The notes below the pieces were generated by a model that did no database searches, was not told where the DNA came from, and saw nothing but the letters and a program-made list of their open reading frames with translations. The position numbers and the translations under genes are program-made. Below, in pieces: positions 1 through 28,893 of a DNA stretch of 64,000 bases. Each line of letters starts with the position of its first letter. Within the stretch, counting starts at the first letter, position 1. The DNA comes from Candidatus Limnocylindria bacterium (GTDB lineage Bacteria > Chloroflexota > Limnocylindria > P2-11E), in assembly GCA_036523395.1 (NCBI GenBank), contig DATDEH010000039.1, positions 1-64,000 on the forward strand, read 5' to 3'.

Positions 1-813
1 GACCGCGTGCGTCTCGAGCACGCCTTTGGCCTCGACCGTCCGCTGCCGATCCAGTACCTGTCGTGGCTCGGCAGCTTCCTCACCCTCGACTGGGGATACT
101 CGTTCTCGAGCCATCAGCCCGTGCTCACGCTGATCGGCGAACGGCTGCCTAACACGCTCTACCTGATGGGCACGGTCTTCGTCGTGGTGCTGTTGCTCGC
201 GATCCCGATCGGCGTTCTCACCGCCGTGCGCCAGTACTCGATCTTCGACCACGTCGTGACCGGGACCACCTTCACCTTCCTCTCGACGCCCACGTTCTGG
301 CTCGGCCTTCTATTGATCATCTTGTTCGGCCTGCAGCTGCGCTGGCTGCCGCTCGGCGGAATGGCGACGCTCGGCGCGCCGTTCGAGATCGGCGACCGCC
401 TCCGCCATCTGGTCCTGCCGGTCGCGACGATCGCGCTCGTGCAGTTGGGCTCGCACGTGCGCTACCTGCGCGCGTCGATGCTCGAAACGATCGGGCAGGA
501 CTACATGCGCACCGCGCGCGCGAAGGGTCTCGCCGAGCGCGTCGTCGTGCTGCGGCACGCATTGAAGAACGCCGCGATCCCACTCGTGACCGTCGTCGCG
601 CTCGACGTGCCGGAGCTCTTCGTCGGCGCGCTCGTGACGGAGCAGATCTTCGGCTGGCCCGGGATGGGCCGTCTGTTCTGGGACGCCGCTACGCGCTCCG
701 ATTACCCGGTCCTGCAGGGCATCCTCGTCGTGTCGAGCACCCTGATCGTGCTCGCGAATCTCTTCGCGGACGTCATGTACGGCTACCTCGATCCGCGGAT
801 CAGGTTCTCGTGA
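1..813 (+). CDS. ABC transporter permease, DppB/OppB type (5' end outside window)
   Basis: Inner-membrane permease of a dipeptide/oligopeptide-type ABC importer. The reading frame is open from base 1 and the first transmembrane helix is missing, so the gene starts upstream; the GTG at 7 is not the likely start. The visible part has the segment after helix 1 (LDRPLPIQYLSWLGS), four or five hydrophobic helices, and the cytoplasmic EAA loop that contacts the ATPase (TARAKGL, about residues 170-185 of the visible part). The ending DPRIRF is typical of the family. It runs into the next permease by a TGATG overlap. The receptor and ATPases of this system are not in the window, so the substrate is unknown. 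Confidence 0.9.
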   Translation, partial: DRVRLEHAFGLDRPLPIQYLSWLGSFLTLDWGYSFSSHQPVLTLIGERLPNTLYLMGTVFVVVLLLAIPIGVLTAVRQYSIFDHVVTGTTFTFLSTPTFWLGLLLIILFGLQLRWLPLGGMATLGAPFEIGDRLRHLVLPVATIALVQLGSHVRYLRASMLETIGQDYMRTARAKGLAERVVVLRHALKNAAIPLVTVVALDVPELFVGALVTEQIFGWPGMGRLFWDAATRSDYPVLQGILVVSSTLIVLANLFADVMYGYLDPRIRFS

Positions 814-1715
814 TGGCGACGAAGTCTGTCGCCGTCCCACTCGCGTCTCCGTTCGCCACCGCTGAGCGCAGCCAGTGGCAGATGGCGCTCGAGCGCTTTC
901 GCGCGCACCGACCGGCGGTGCTCGGTGTCTTCGTGCTCGTGACGCTGGCGATCCTCTGCGCCGCCGCTCCGCTCGTTTCGCCGTACGACCCCGACAAGAC
1001 GCGGCTCCTCGAGCTCTACGAGCCGCCGTCACTCACGCATCCGTTCGGGACGGATGACCTGGGACGCGATCTCGCCACGCGGATCCTATACGGCGGGCGC
1101 GTCTCGCTATCGGTCGGTCTCCTCGCGGTCACCGTCGCCGTCTCGATCGGCACCCTCGTCGGCGTGCTCGCCGGCTACTACGGGGGGTGGATCGACAGCG
1201 TGCTCATGCGGTTCGTCGACATGATGTATTCGTTCCCCCGCCTATTCCTGCTGATCCTCTTCGGCGTGTTCTTCAAGGGCATGACGATCGGCGTGATCGT
1301 CATCGTCCTTGGACTCCTCTCGTGGATGACGACGTCGCGTCTCGTCCGGGCGACGTTCCTGTCGCTGAAGAACCGCGAGTTCGTCGAGGCCGCGCGCTGC
1401 ATCGGCGCCACCGACCGGCGGATCATCGTGCGACACATCCTGCCGAACTCCCTCGCGCCGATCATCGTCGCCGCGACGCTCGGCGTCGCAGCCGCGATCA
1501 TCGCGGAGAGCACGCTCTCGTTCCTCGGGCTTGGCATCCAGCCGCCCACGCCCTCGTGGGGCAACATGCTCAATCACGCCACGACCGACATGGCGAAGGC
1601 GCCATGGATCGCGATCTTCCCCGGGCTCTTCATTTTCCTCGCCGTCGTCTCGATCAACTTCATCGGCGACGGTCTACGAGACGCGCTCGATCCGCGTCAT
1701 GTCGTGCGCGGCTAG
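813..1715 (+). CDS. ABC transporter permease, DppC/OppC type
   Basis: Second inner-membrane permease of the same importer, 300 residues. Features: a short cytoplasmic N-terminus, first helix near residues 30-50, the family signature HPFGTDDLGRD near residue 75, an EAA loop (EAARCIGATDRRI) near residue 195, and a C-terminal GDGLRDALDPR typical of DppC. ATG at 813 overlaps the previous stop (TGATG); a GTG at 810 would add one residue. The stop TAG (1713-1715) lies inside GCTAGC, which is also the left target duplication of the downstream insertion sequence, so the gene was left intact by the insertion. Confidence 0.92.
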   Translation: MATKSVAVPLASPFATAERSQWQMALERFRAHRPAVLGVFVLVTLAILCAAAPLVSPYDPDKTRLLELYEPPSLTHPFGTDDLGRDLATRILYGGRVSLSVGLLAVTVAVSIGTLVGVLAGYYGGWIDSVLMRFVDMMYSFPRLFLLILFGVFFKGMTIGVIVIVLGLLSWMTTSRLVRATFLSLKNREFVEAARCIGATDRRIIVRHILPNSLAPIIVAATLGVAAAIIAESTLSFLGLGIQPPTPSWGNMLNHATTDMAKAPWIAIFPGLFIFLAVVSINFIGDGLRDALDPRHVVRG

Positions 1716-1716
1716 C
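1711..1716. repeat. Left 6-bp target duplication (GCTAGC)
   Basis: GCTAGC directly precedes the left inverted repeat of the IS481-family element; an identical copy follows the right inverted repeat. It matches the NCTAGN target and 6-bp duplication known for IS481 and IS1002. The TAG inside is the stop codon of the upstream permease. Confidence 0.8.
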
Positions 1717-1727
1717 TGAGGTCTCCC
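1717..1727. repeat. IS481-type left inverted repeat
   Basis: TGAGGTCTCCC, the exact reverse complement of 2740-2750. It defines the left end of the element. Confidence 0.85.
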
Positions 1728-1745
1728 GGCACCTAGGTCACAAAT

Positions 1746-1807
1746 AGAAGGCCCCCGACTAGGGTGGCGGTGTTCAACGCCAACCACTTCTAGTCGGAGG
1801 GCTTTCT
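1746..1807 (+). promoter_or_regulatory. Hairpin over the transposase ribosome binding site
   Basis: The arm at 1746-1762 (GGCCCCCGACTAG core) is nearly complementary to the arm at 1790-1807 (CTAGTCGGAGGGC core), with one bulge, separated by about 27 bases. The right arm contains the Shine-Dalgarno GGAGG (1796-1800) of the transposase and is followed by a T-rich run. Transcripts entering from the permease operon would fold this stem and hide the ribosome binding site or terminate. Several other insertion sequences protect themselves from outside transcription this way; the role here is inferred. Confidence 0.65.
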
Positions 1808-2740
1808 TTGTATCACTCAGCCGCCACAACCCCGAGGATGCGTGCGTTCCTGGTGAGCGAAGCCGAGCGGATCGGCGTGACACGCACGGCCAGACAACTT
1901 GGCGTGAGTCGACGAACGGTGTATCGCTGGCGCCGGCGCGCGCCCGACTTCAGTGATCGCCCGTGTCGGCCGCACCACTCGCCGCTGCGTGCGGCGGATG
2001 TTCTCGAGGCCAACGTGCTCGCCCTGCGGCTGGAGCGACGCTGGGGTCCAGACCGCATCGGCGCGGTGCTGCACCTCGCGCCGAGCAGCGTGTATCGGAT
2101 CCTGCGACGCCATCAGGCCCAGCGACTGAGCCACCTGTTCCCGAAGCCCCCGCGAAGCTACGGGCACTTCGAGGTGATGGCGCCCGGCGAGCTCGTCGCC
2201 TTCGACACGAAGAGTCTTGGTCGTCTGGATCGCGGCGGCGGCCGTCATCCTGGACGTGGCAATCGGCCGCCGGGCGAGGGCCGCGATCAGCGCGTGGGTT
2301 GGCGTCAACTGCACGTCGCGATCGATCTGGCCAGCCGCGTGGTCGTGGCTGAGCTGCGTCCGGCGGCCGGGAACGCGGACACGATCGCGTTTCTCGAGCG
2401 CGCGCTCGCGGCGTTCGACGCCCGTGGCATCCGCGTCCGGCGCGTGCTGACCGACAACGGCTCCGGCTACAAACGCACGTTCCACGAGCGCGCCCTGGCT
2501 CTCGGTGTGCGGCATACCCGTACCAAGCCATATCACCCGTGGACCAACGGCCGCGTTGAGCGATTCAACGGCACGATCCAGCGCGAATGCCTGTATGGGG
2601 AGGAGTTCCGTTCAGAAGAGCAACGCGACCTTGCGGTTGCGCTCTACCTCGCCTATTACAACGCCGAACGCCCGCACATCGCTCTCGGTGGTCTCGCTCC
2701 AGCGCAGTGGCTAGCGCGCTGGAATGCGACCCAGGTCTAG
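1808..2740 (+). CDS. IS481-family transposase
   Basis: DDE transposase that would cut and join the ends of its own element. An N-terminal helix-turn-helix (GVSRRTVYRWRRR, residues 32-44) is followed by an rve/integrase catalytic core. The acidic triad is visible: D133 (AFDTKS), D216 (LTDNG) and E251 (ERFNG), with 34 residues between the last two, and a C-terminal YNAERPH motif. The TTG at 1808 lies seven bases after a GGAGG Shine-Dalgarno; an in-frame ATG at 1838 is the alternative but has no such site. The frame is undamaged and the stop lies at the edge of the right inverted repeat. Confidence 0.92.
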   Translation: MYHSAATTPRMRAFLVSEAERIGVTRTARQLGVSRRTVYRWRRRAPDFSDRPCRPHHSPLRAADVLEANVLALRLERRWGPDRIGAVLHLAPSSVYRILRRHQAQRLSHLFPKPPRSYGHFEVMAPGELVAFDTKSLGRLDRGGGRHPGRGNRPPGEGRDQRVGWRQLHVAIDLASRVVVAELRPAAGNADTIAFLERALAAFDARGIRVRRVLTDNGSGYKRTFHERALALGVRHTRTKPYHPWTNGRVERFNGTIQRECLYGEEFRSEEQRDLAVALYLAYYNAERPHIALGGLAPAQWLARWNATQV

Positions 2741-2750
2741 GGAGACCTCA
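2740..2750. repeat. IS481-type right inverted repeat
   Basis: GGGAGACCTCA, the exact reverse complement of the left end at 1717-1727. Confidence 0.85.
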
Positions 2751-2756
2751 GCTAGC
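2751..2756. repeat. Right 6-bp target duplication (GCTAGC)
   Basis: Identical to 1711-1716. The minus-strand TAG inside it (2752-2754) is the stop codon of the MFS gene. Confidence 0.8.
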
Positions 2757-3975
2757 TCGCGACCGCCTCGGCGGGCGCCTCGAGATAGCGCTCGGCGTGG
2801 CCGAGCGGGCTGAACAGCCGGAAGTAGAGCGCGATGCCGAAGACCAGCGCGCCGATGGCCGCGTAGACGGTCTGCACGTCACCGGTGCGCTCGACGATGT
2901 AGCCGCCGATCGTCGCGCCGAGCGGGTTCGCGGACCAGGCGAGGACCATCGCGATGGTGATGATCCGGCCCAGCAGGTGATTCGGGACGATGGCCTGCCT
3001 CAGGCTTCCGGTGTTGATGTTGAACAGGATCCCGAGGCCCGACGAAAGCGCGGACAGCATGACCGCGAGGAGATACGTCGGAGCGTAGGCGAGCGCCAGT
3101 GTCAGCAGACCACTCAGCATCAGAGCGACGAGTGCGACATTGCCGAACGAGAAGCGGCTGCGGAGCGGGCCCGCCGCGAGCGACATCGCCACGACGCCCG
3201 CACCGTCGGCCGCGAAGAGAAGGCCGAGCTCGCTGTCTGACACGGCGAAGCGGTGCTTGGCGAACAGGACGAGCTGCGCGTACACGGTCACGCTCACGAA
3301 ATTGATCAGCGCCATCATCGCCGAGATGTTCCGCAGGACGGGGTGCCGGAGGACGTACCGCAGGCCTTCCATGACGTCGGCGCGGATCGACGTGCGAGCG
3401 GCCTCCCGCGCGGCGTTGAACGGCCGCGCGATCAGCGAGAGCGTCACCGCCGAGACGGCGAACGTCGCGGCATCGATGTACAGCAGGTCCTCGAGCGGGA
3501 TGAGAGCGAGCAGAGCGCCCGCGGCCAGCGGACCGAGTACCGACGCGGTCGAGAAGCTTGCCTGGATGCGACCGTTGGCCGCGACGAGCTCGTCACGTCC
3601 GACAAGGCTGGGGATCGCGGCGAACTGGGCGGCCTCGAAGAAGATGCCCAGCGTCGCGGAGAGGAAGATCGCCGAGTAGATCCACCACACCGAGAGCACG
3701 CCCGCGGCGGCCGCGAGCGGCACCGACGCGAGAACAGCCGCGTTCAGAAGGTCCACGACGATCATGAGGCGCTTCCGATCGAGGCGGTCGGTCCACGCGC
3801 CGATCAGCAACCCGAATAAGAGGTGTGGCAGGCCGAACATCGCGAAGCCGATCCCGAGCGAGACCGCGGACCCGGTCAGCTTGAAGACCAGCAGCGGCAG
3901 CGCGAGCTGCGTGATCGAGCTGCCGAAGCTCGAGATGGTCTCGCCGGTCCAGAACTTCCAGAAATCGGAGCGCAT
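2752..3975 (-). CDS. MFS transporter (exporter-like, MFS_3 type)
   Basis: Integral membrane transporter of the major facilitator superfamily, 407 residues, about twelve hydrophobic helices. The loop between helices 2 and 3 has the MFS motif A form (GAWTDRLDRKR, about residues 55-65). The layout resembles the MFS_3/enterobactin-exporter group, so drug or siderophore export is plausible but not shown. The open frame extends further upstream, but the ATG at 3975 is preferred: it begins the normal short N-terminus before helix 1 (RSDFWKFW), avoids overlap with the divergent peptidase gene, and has a -10-like TAGTCT eight bases before it. Its stop coincides with the target duplication of the insertion sequence. 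Confidence 0.85.
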   Translation of the reverse strand: MRSDFWKFWTGETISSFGSSITQLALPLLVFKLTGSAVSLGIGFAMFGLPHLLFGLLIGAWTDRLDRKRLMIVVDLLNAAVLASVPLAAAAGVLSVWWIYSAIFLSATLGIFFEAAQFAAIPSLVGRDELVAANGRIQASFSTASVLGPLAAGALLALIPLEDLLYIDAATFAVSAVTLSLIARPFNAAREAARTSIRADVMEGLRYVLRHPVLRNISAMMALINFVSVTVYAQLVLFAKHRFAVSDSELGLLFAADGAGVVAMSLAAGPLRSRFSFGNVALVALMLSGLLTLALAYAPTYLLAVMLSALSSGLGILFNINTGSLRQAIVPNHLLGRIITIAMVLAWSANPLGATIGGYIVERTGDVQTVYAAIGALVFGIALYFRLFSPLGHAERYLEAPAEAVAS

Positions 3976-28500: not shown

Positions 28501-28893
28501 CTCACGCTCATCGGACCGCTCCTCGTCCTGGCGGCGGCGCGCTGGCGCATACCCGACGAGGCGTTCGAGGACCGCGTCGCGGCAGTGGTCGAGCGGACCT
28601 CGCACGCGCGCGGCCGCGCGCTCCTGACGCACGCGGAGGCGATCCGCATCGACAACGCGGGCGAGCACGCCAAGGCCGCGAAGCTGCTCTTCGATGCCGT
28701 GCAGGCGTTCGCGACGCTCAAGCTCGATTACGAGCGCGCCGTCGCTCTCGCCGATCTGGCGCGCGCGCTCCGCAACGTGCCGGGCCGCGAGGAGCAGGCC
28801 CAGGCGCAGTGCGACGAGGCGAAGGCGATCGCCGAGCGCCTCAGCGCTACGGCACTGCGCGTCGCGGCGGAGAACCTGACCGTCCGGGTCTAG
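25576..28893 (+). CDS. Class III adenylate/guanylate cyclase-AAA ATPase-TPR regulator
   Basis: 1105-residue cytoplasmic signalling protein. Residues 15-185 form a class III nucleotide cyclase domain: metal Asp22 (FADFAGFT) and Asp66 (FIGDAIF), with the transition-state NIASRL block near 144. From about 205 there is an AAA/NACHT-like ATPase with Walker A GEPGIGKSR, and the C-terminal half is TPR-like helical repeats. This architecture is common in soil Actinobacteria and Chloroflexota, usually with unknown input. GTG 25576 overlaps the HTTM gene by 19 bases; GTG 25588 is an alternative. Its stop shares CTAG with the convergent oxidoreductase gene. Confidence 0.92.
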   Translation: MDAQVLEQQPQERRLVTVLFADFAGFTELADQMDPEELQVLVSGIFEDLAEEAVRHDGTIEKFIGDAIFVVFGAPVAHEDDPQRALRTALAMQRVFADHAARVKKERGVEFGLRIGLHTGMVVAGAVRSVAEYGVMGDTVNIASRLQSAAGPGEIYVTQTTFRLTNREFSFREVGPVELKGKDKPILAYALIGERTDVRPSIEIAAPLVGRWMELSRLDLAYQSARLGRTELVLIAGEPGIGKSRLVSEFIGLATAAEEGAKSADAPRVMRWTFSRVNQRSYAGFIEPILVELNLQPSDPEAITRVGEKLLELGFMNPGPAVAPMLAQFLHLPGVNEPASDSEEWKRAMYIVVYDVIAALARQHPLLYVLEDLHFADAASLDLLWFLTSRASRVPILFLLAQRLGPGSPEPKPTRTNYSQLVLEPLSDEEAARIVEATLDWVPDELRDRIVARAGGNPFFIEESLRSLVESGAAEKDASGEWHLRERPAALEVPATLHAVVASRIDRLPPTARECIQLAAVIGTRFGDRVLREAGGDRIADAVDQLIAADLVLEAAPGERREGRYRFKHAVVQEVAYNTLLVRRRIELHRRVATAYEKVLGEELKEFYPALAHHYLIGDVPEKAAEYSWKSAQRATAIHAYIEALRFAEQALELYEKINRIEAAVEALYLIARVRRYRGENDAALTAYERALGLLETRDPKSGEVAIVLAYMAELCTRWDAKHPDLESLIERGLAIVGDAKSRERVLLLAAKSFMPRRGPKSTDADWEASLATAKEALTIAEELGLLRERSLCLDAVGFAYRELGNFREAYLANQRRLPIAQSLQDSDELIDAHTMVAICALSLGDMHEAMDHAASAREVAIETEKPRLGAHALRTETLAHLLAGDFPGTIAAAARRERFATPTKWPSTLSVAIGAASAMSSPEEKAYRDLLIEQEASPAELALADFLAAYYGMRESESAYHAVRSAGQPKSIVDLTLIGPLLVLAAARWRIPDEAFEDRVAAVVERTSHARGRALLTHAEAIRIDNAGEHAKAAKLLFDAVQAFATLKLDYERAVALADLARALRNVPGREEQAQAQCDEAKAIAERLSATALRVAAENLTVRV

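Follow-up and report, generated by a model that had tools for sequence, protein, structure and literature searches.

Why can a transposon lie exactly where two convergent genes end and leave both of them complete? This question is raised by a 64,000-nucleotide stretch of contig DATDEH010000039.1 from a Candidatus Limnocylindria bacterium (the window), in which an insertion sequence separates an oligopeptide permease gene from an MFS transporter gene (Table 1). A sequence-only reading had claimed that the element fell on a CTAG that was the stop codon of both genes, that a 6-bp target duplication preserved each stop, and that a CTAG-targeting transposon has a harmless landing site wherever convergent stops share this word. 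Targeting of CTAG followed by selection very probably explains both the insertion in the window and the over-representation of copies at shared stops in the subgroup to which this element belongs.

Table 1. Positions of the element, its target duplications and its neighbors in the window.
Feature	Position	Strand	Remark
IS481-family insertion sequence, 1,034 bp, complete	1717..2750	+	direct sequence reading, profile match
Left target duplication GCTAGC	1711..1716		TAG 1713-1715 is the permease stop
Right target duplication GCTAGC	2751..2756		CTA 2752-2754 is the minus-strand TAG stop of the MFS gene
Left terminal inverted repeat	1717..1742	+	first 11 bp perfect, 21/26 overall
Right terminal inverted repeat	2725..2750	-	pairs with left repeat, 21/26
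Transposase, 310 aa, TTG start, stop inside element	1808..2740	+	
Oligopeptide ABC transporter permease (Opp4C type), intact	810..1715	+	
MFS transporter, intact	2752..3975	-	
Conserved RNA hairpin just 5' of transposase start	1746..1807	+	

The element itself is an ordinary member of the IS481 family. Its transposase scores 255.4 bits against the curated IS481 model NF033577 (cut-off 224), and the next best family model, IS3, reaches 112.5 bits, below its cut-off of 160. Profile search finds the integrase core domains rve and rve_3 behind an N-terminal helix-turn-helix part, and the putative catalytic residues, placed by motif, are D133, D216 and E251, with 34 residues separating the last two. 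Like other family members, the element has a single transposase gene within about 1 kb (one ORF in 1,034 bp), terminal inverted repeats, and a DDE triad in the integrase core. The 11-bp perfect terminal repeats of the sequence-only reading were read directly as TGAGGTCTCCC (1717-1727) and GGGAGACCTCA (2740-2750), within ends that match imperfectly across 26 bp, and GCTAGC indeed stands on each side. The permease matches NF045476 (Opp4C; 368 bits, cut-off 350) and the MFS gene product matches PF07690. That reading had also proposed mapping all copies in the genome, and a genome-wide search showed the element in the window to be the sole one.

The site before insertion was reconstructed from related genomes. 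In G002, which belongs to the same genus and lacks the element, orthologues of the permease (91% identity) and of the MFS gene (88%) converge on one GCTAGA, the CTAG of which is TAG for both genes. With one letter of this hexamer different and an extra codon in the permease, the empty site is homologous, not identical; the single CTAG common to both genes, which the earlier reconstruction had expected to find in a relative, is thus present, but the hexamer is not the GCTAGC that it gave. The empty site of a related element in G016 is stricter than this one. The joined flanks of that element, CCCGGCTAGCTCGAACGATCGCC, occur uninterrupted in G026 and, bar one base, in one G024 contig, in both cases with a single GCTAGC between near-identical flanks. 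The shared CTAG of this locus is also retained in G018, G025, and G027, making five other genomes of the family that have it without the element, and in a sixth genome the 4-bp overlap is present as CTAA.

Both stops survive at the insertion in the window, as had been claimed, and the 6-bp length of the duplication comes from relatives of the element, since the palindrome also allows 4. Because GCTAGC is its own reverse complement, the copy in the window fits either a 6-bp duplication or a 4-bp duplication with one extra base per element end, and the empty G016 site, also a palindromic GCTAGC, is compatible with both lengths. The window copy has CTAG at both ends, as have 48 of the 112 related loci that were scored automatically, with fragments and mis-scored ends counted in. 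The NCTAGN duplication, on the presence of which in other copies the earlier reading had staked itself, is seen in 22 of these 48 relatives as identical flanking hexamers; 4.9 were expected on shuffling, and 22 was reached in none of 20,000 shuffles. Because these hexamers are often non-palindromic (ACTAGG, GCTAGG, GCTAGT, TCTAGC, CCTAGC, and CCTAGT), the target duplication is likely one of six bases. In more than half of the 48 copies the outer bases are unequal, especially in Alphaproteobacteria (identical in 7 of 22), a pattern that may stem from later mutation or from recombination between copies. Outer bases are also unequal at the loci L145 and L143, which end in ACTAGC/GCTAGT and TCTAGT/GCTAGC, with CTAG kept on both sides.

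How often convergent genes share a CTAG stop was counted in contigs of the same bacterial family, with genes called by a codon-usage model written for this analysis. An exact 4-bp overlap was found in 32 of 138 distinct convergent pairs (1.13 Mb), and no other gap length from -12 to +20 occurs in more than four pairs. The overlap is CTAG in 26 of the 32, and a few of these 26 may include transposase genes at element-bearing loci; such loci are masked in the control counts below. CTAG overlaps of convergent genes are therefore common in this family. The 555 control CTAG sites comprise 23 shared convergent stops, 182 single stops, 204 intergenic sites, and 146 sites inside or overlapping a gene. 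Across 1.15 Mb, shared convergent stops make up 23 of the 382 non-coding control sites, and 85 of the 382 lie between convergent genes. In the window, 5 of the 24 other CTAG sites are shared convergent stops, and the five convergent pairs concerned meet at 28890, 40079, 54285, 58689, and 61086.

Among the genomes searched, only those of the same bacterial family contain close relatives of the element, which have TGA-type ends and 53-79% protein identity. Both flanks are readable in five copies, including that in the window. The G016 copy lies on the shared stop of genes for a MoCoBD protein (molybdopterin oxidoreductase) and an SDH-type (ClpP-like) protease, and that at G006:C33 on the shared stop of membrane dipeptidase and amidase genes. 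A further copy, at G005:C233, is on a shared convergent stop whose right gene runs for just 41 codons before the contig end cuts it off. At G009:C115, CTAG ends the right gene and the left gene stops 8 bp short. The hexamers of the G005 and G009 copies are unequal, so later mutation or recombination must have occurred there. In the comparison with other CTAG sites that the sequence-only reading had asked for, convergent genes share the stop at 4 of 5 close copies but at 23 of 382 non-coding controls (Fisher 9e-5). As the window copy was picked for being striking, the fair test is that without it, which gives 3 of 4 (Fisher 0.001); without the G005 copy as well, the value is 0.012. These observations establish that CTAG is the target, that it is duplicated, that both stops survive, and that the arrangement recurs.

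Five further close copies have one readable flank each, and in three of them (G013:C17, G012:C155, and G006:C54) a gene stops on the CTAG. The copy at G013:C108 has no gene stopping there, and at G006:C37 (L275, about 1480-1500) the gene stop is 12 bp upstream, in a triple GACTAG/ACTAGG repeat where a partial element has its right end, which looks as if insertion or excision had recurred at one site. A one-mismatch pattern search for more element ends returned mostly chance matches. The element at G006:C33 (L273, 1501-2638) is a hybrid, its right 313 bp being of the close subgroup and its left end (TGTACTTCC...) of a distant IS481 type, and both of its flanking genes still end on CTAG.

The mechanism that we favor would begin with the DDE transposase inserting the IS481-family element at CTAG. 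In the window, two convergent genes overlapped by 4 bp at that CTAG, which read TAG for both. Duplication of the target gives each flank its own CTAG, and sequence and empty sites show that no residue changes in either protein, that no promoter is touched, and that no operon is split. Insertions at CTAG within operons, promoters, or genes would carry a cost, and selection would filter the copies that survive. Because the overlaps are common in the family and many other CTAGs lie in genes, in operons, or near promoters, shared-stop insertions would be among the most tolerated. We infer that selection is the cause of the over-representation at shared stops. The genes on either side are convergent for all five close copies but for 85 of 382 controls (p 6e-4), and since the shared-stop excess is mostly this excess, tolerance would be sufficient as its cause. 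The weak points of the case are that five close copies only are fully readable, that two of them have unequal hexamers, that the G006 element is a hybrid, and that the gene calls are home-made.

Pure coincidence would mean that an element targeting CTAG, many sites of which are stops, merely chanced on a shared one in the window. In its favor stand the counts of shared stops among CTAG sites, in the window and across the control sequence, but the pattern recurs in other genera at different gene pairs, with 3 of 4 copies even when that in the window is set aside, and we regard coincidence as very unlikely. A shared CTAG younger than the insertion, left for example when an element that had carried it in was precisely lost, is hardly credible. 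Element copies always have CTAG bordering both ends, as such a history would have it; against this, the G016-locus overlap stands without an element in five family genomes and in CTAA form in the sixth, and 4-bp convergent overlaps occur genome-wide.

We consider active targeting unlikely, in which the subgroup transposase would favor junctions of convergent genes, or shared stops, by something more than CTAG, for instance local supercoiling, stalled polymerases, or terminator structures. Given convergence, close copies are on shared stops in 4 of 5 cases against 23 of 85 control sites (p 0.027, marginal), a mild excess in numbers that are very small and one that falls to p about 0.06 without the window copy. 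Two of 22 Alphaproteobacterial copies also lie on shared CTAG stops, against none of 132 local non-coding sites (p 0.02). However, the more distant relatives in Chloroflexota, which also target CTAG, have no copy on a shared stop (0 of 21), in genomes that may have fewer such sites and where the control is small, and their gene orientations look unbiased. An active preference for convergent junctions is not needed to explain the pattern. We likewise give little credence to a stronger version, in which the subgroup in this one Chloroflexota family would use shared-stop CTAGs as a preferred niche, chosen beyond CTAG and selection, for spreading free of cost.

With CTAG targeting and selection as the preferred reading, the claim of a harmless landing site is supported by the close relatives, which reuse such sites, and distant Chloroflexota IS481 elements show no excess there; a preference for shared stops by all CTAG-targeting IS481 elements was considered and rejected for these distant copies. 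Among the 26 Chloroflexota copies bordered by CTAG on both sides, none was called intragenic, whereas 146 of the 555 control CTAG sites were inside or overlapping a gene. One of the Alphaproteobacterial shared-stop copies lies between genes that we take, from reading their sequences, to encode a nitrilase and an RNA cyclase. The transposase gene of 37 of the 48 copies, but not that of the window copy, ends on the TAG supplied by the duplicated CTAG on the right. As the G016 transposase does so, the right CTAG at that locus again serves two convergent genes, transposase and protease.

Several features of this locus have known counterparts. IS481 of Bordetella pertussis, about 1.04 kb long with an NCTAGN target and 6-bp duplication (PMC3053399), resembles the window element in transposase family, approximate length, and target; the window element differs in its terminal sequence TGAGGTC and in being a single copy. 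In the literature searched, we found no report of both convergent stops being kept. A precedent is TnRErm46/ISRe46 of Rhodococcus equi, which targets CTAG with NCTAGN duplication and in which the duplicated TAG is the stop of the target gene, leaving it uninterrupted (PMC6794481). That one target gene keeps its stop under a CTAG-targeting IS481 element is therefore already published. TnRErm46 is, however, a compound element with cargo, described for the stop of one gene where both convergent genes are concerned here, and the ISRe46 transposase stops inside the duplication, whereas that in the window stops inside the element. ISLxc2/ISLxx4 of Leifsonia xyli, also of the IS481 family with NCTAGN duplication (PMC2516522), likewise has its transposase stop in the host duplication, as do most copies counted here but not that in the window. 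Convergent overlaps of CTAG, TTAA, CTAA, and TTAG are a known class of 4-bp overlaps (PMC2174442), and a broad survey found IS481 over-represented between convergent genes (PMC9208149). No paper in the literature searched dealt with IS481 insertion where convergent genes share a stop, and none tied 4-bp convergent overlaps to CTAG-targeting transposons. Set against that literature, modestly new points are the two-gene case together with its empty sites, the repeated occurrence of this case in a single family, and the base rate of such sites.

This is a concrete, countable case in which the short word that a transposon targets coincides with the CTAG overlap of convergent genes, something that compact genomes commonly have, at no cost at the protein level, and it helps to explain where CTAG-targeting elements survive. 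Because CTAG is otherwise scarce (31 sites in the window against 72.5 expected) and the sites can be listed in any genome, target choice and selection become testable against each other.

Finally, transcripts that enter an insertion sequence from neighboring genes hide the ribosome site of the transposase in a hairpin in IS10, IS50, and IS200. The hairpin ahead of the transposase here has a predicted fold of -42 kcal/mol (z -7.0), and its 3' arm holds GGAGGG (1796-1801), a putative ribosome site six bases before the TTG. Each of the six left ends that were compared has this hairpin (z-scores from -5 to -8), and at five consensus pairs at least one sequence differs in both paired bases. By analogy, it probably keeps transcripts entering from the neighbor genes from being translated into transposase. 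A consensus search of 1600-2900 found no promoter-like or terminator-like site, and we therefore do not claim the hairpin as an intrinsic terminator. The element of about 1 kb contains five CTAGs of its own (1733, 1759, 1790, 2711, and 2737) despite the scarcity of this word in the window, and two of these CTAGs form base pairs with one another in the stem of the hairpin, where most of the copies compared retain them.
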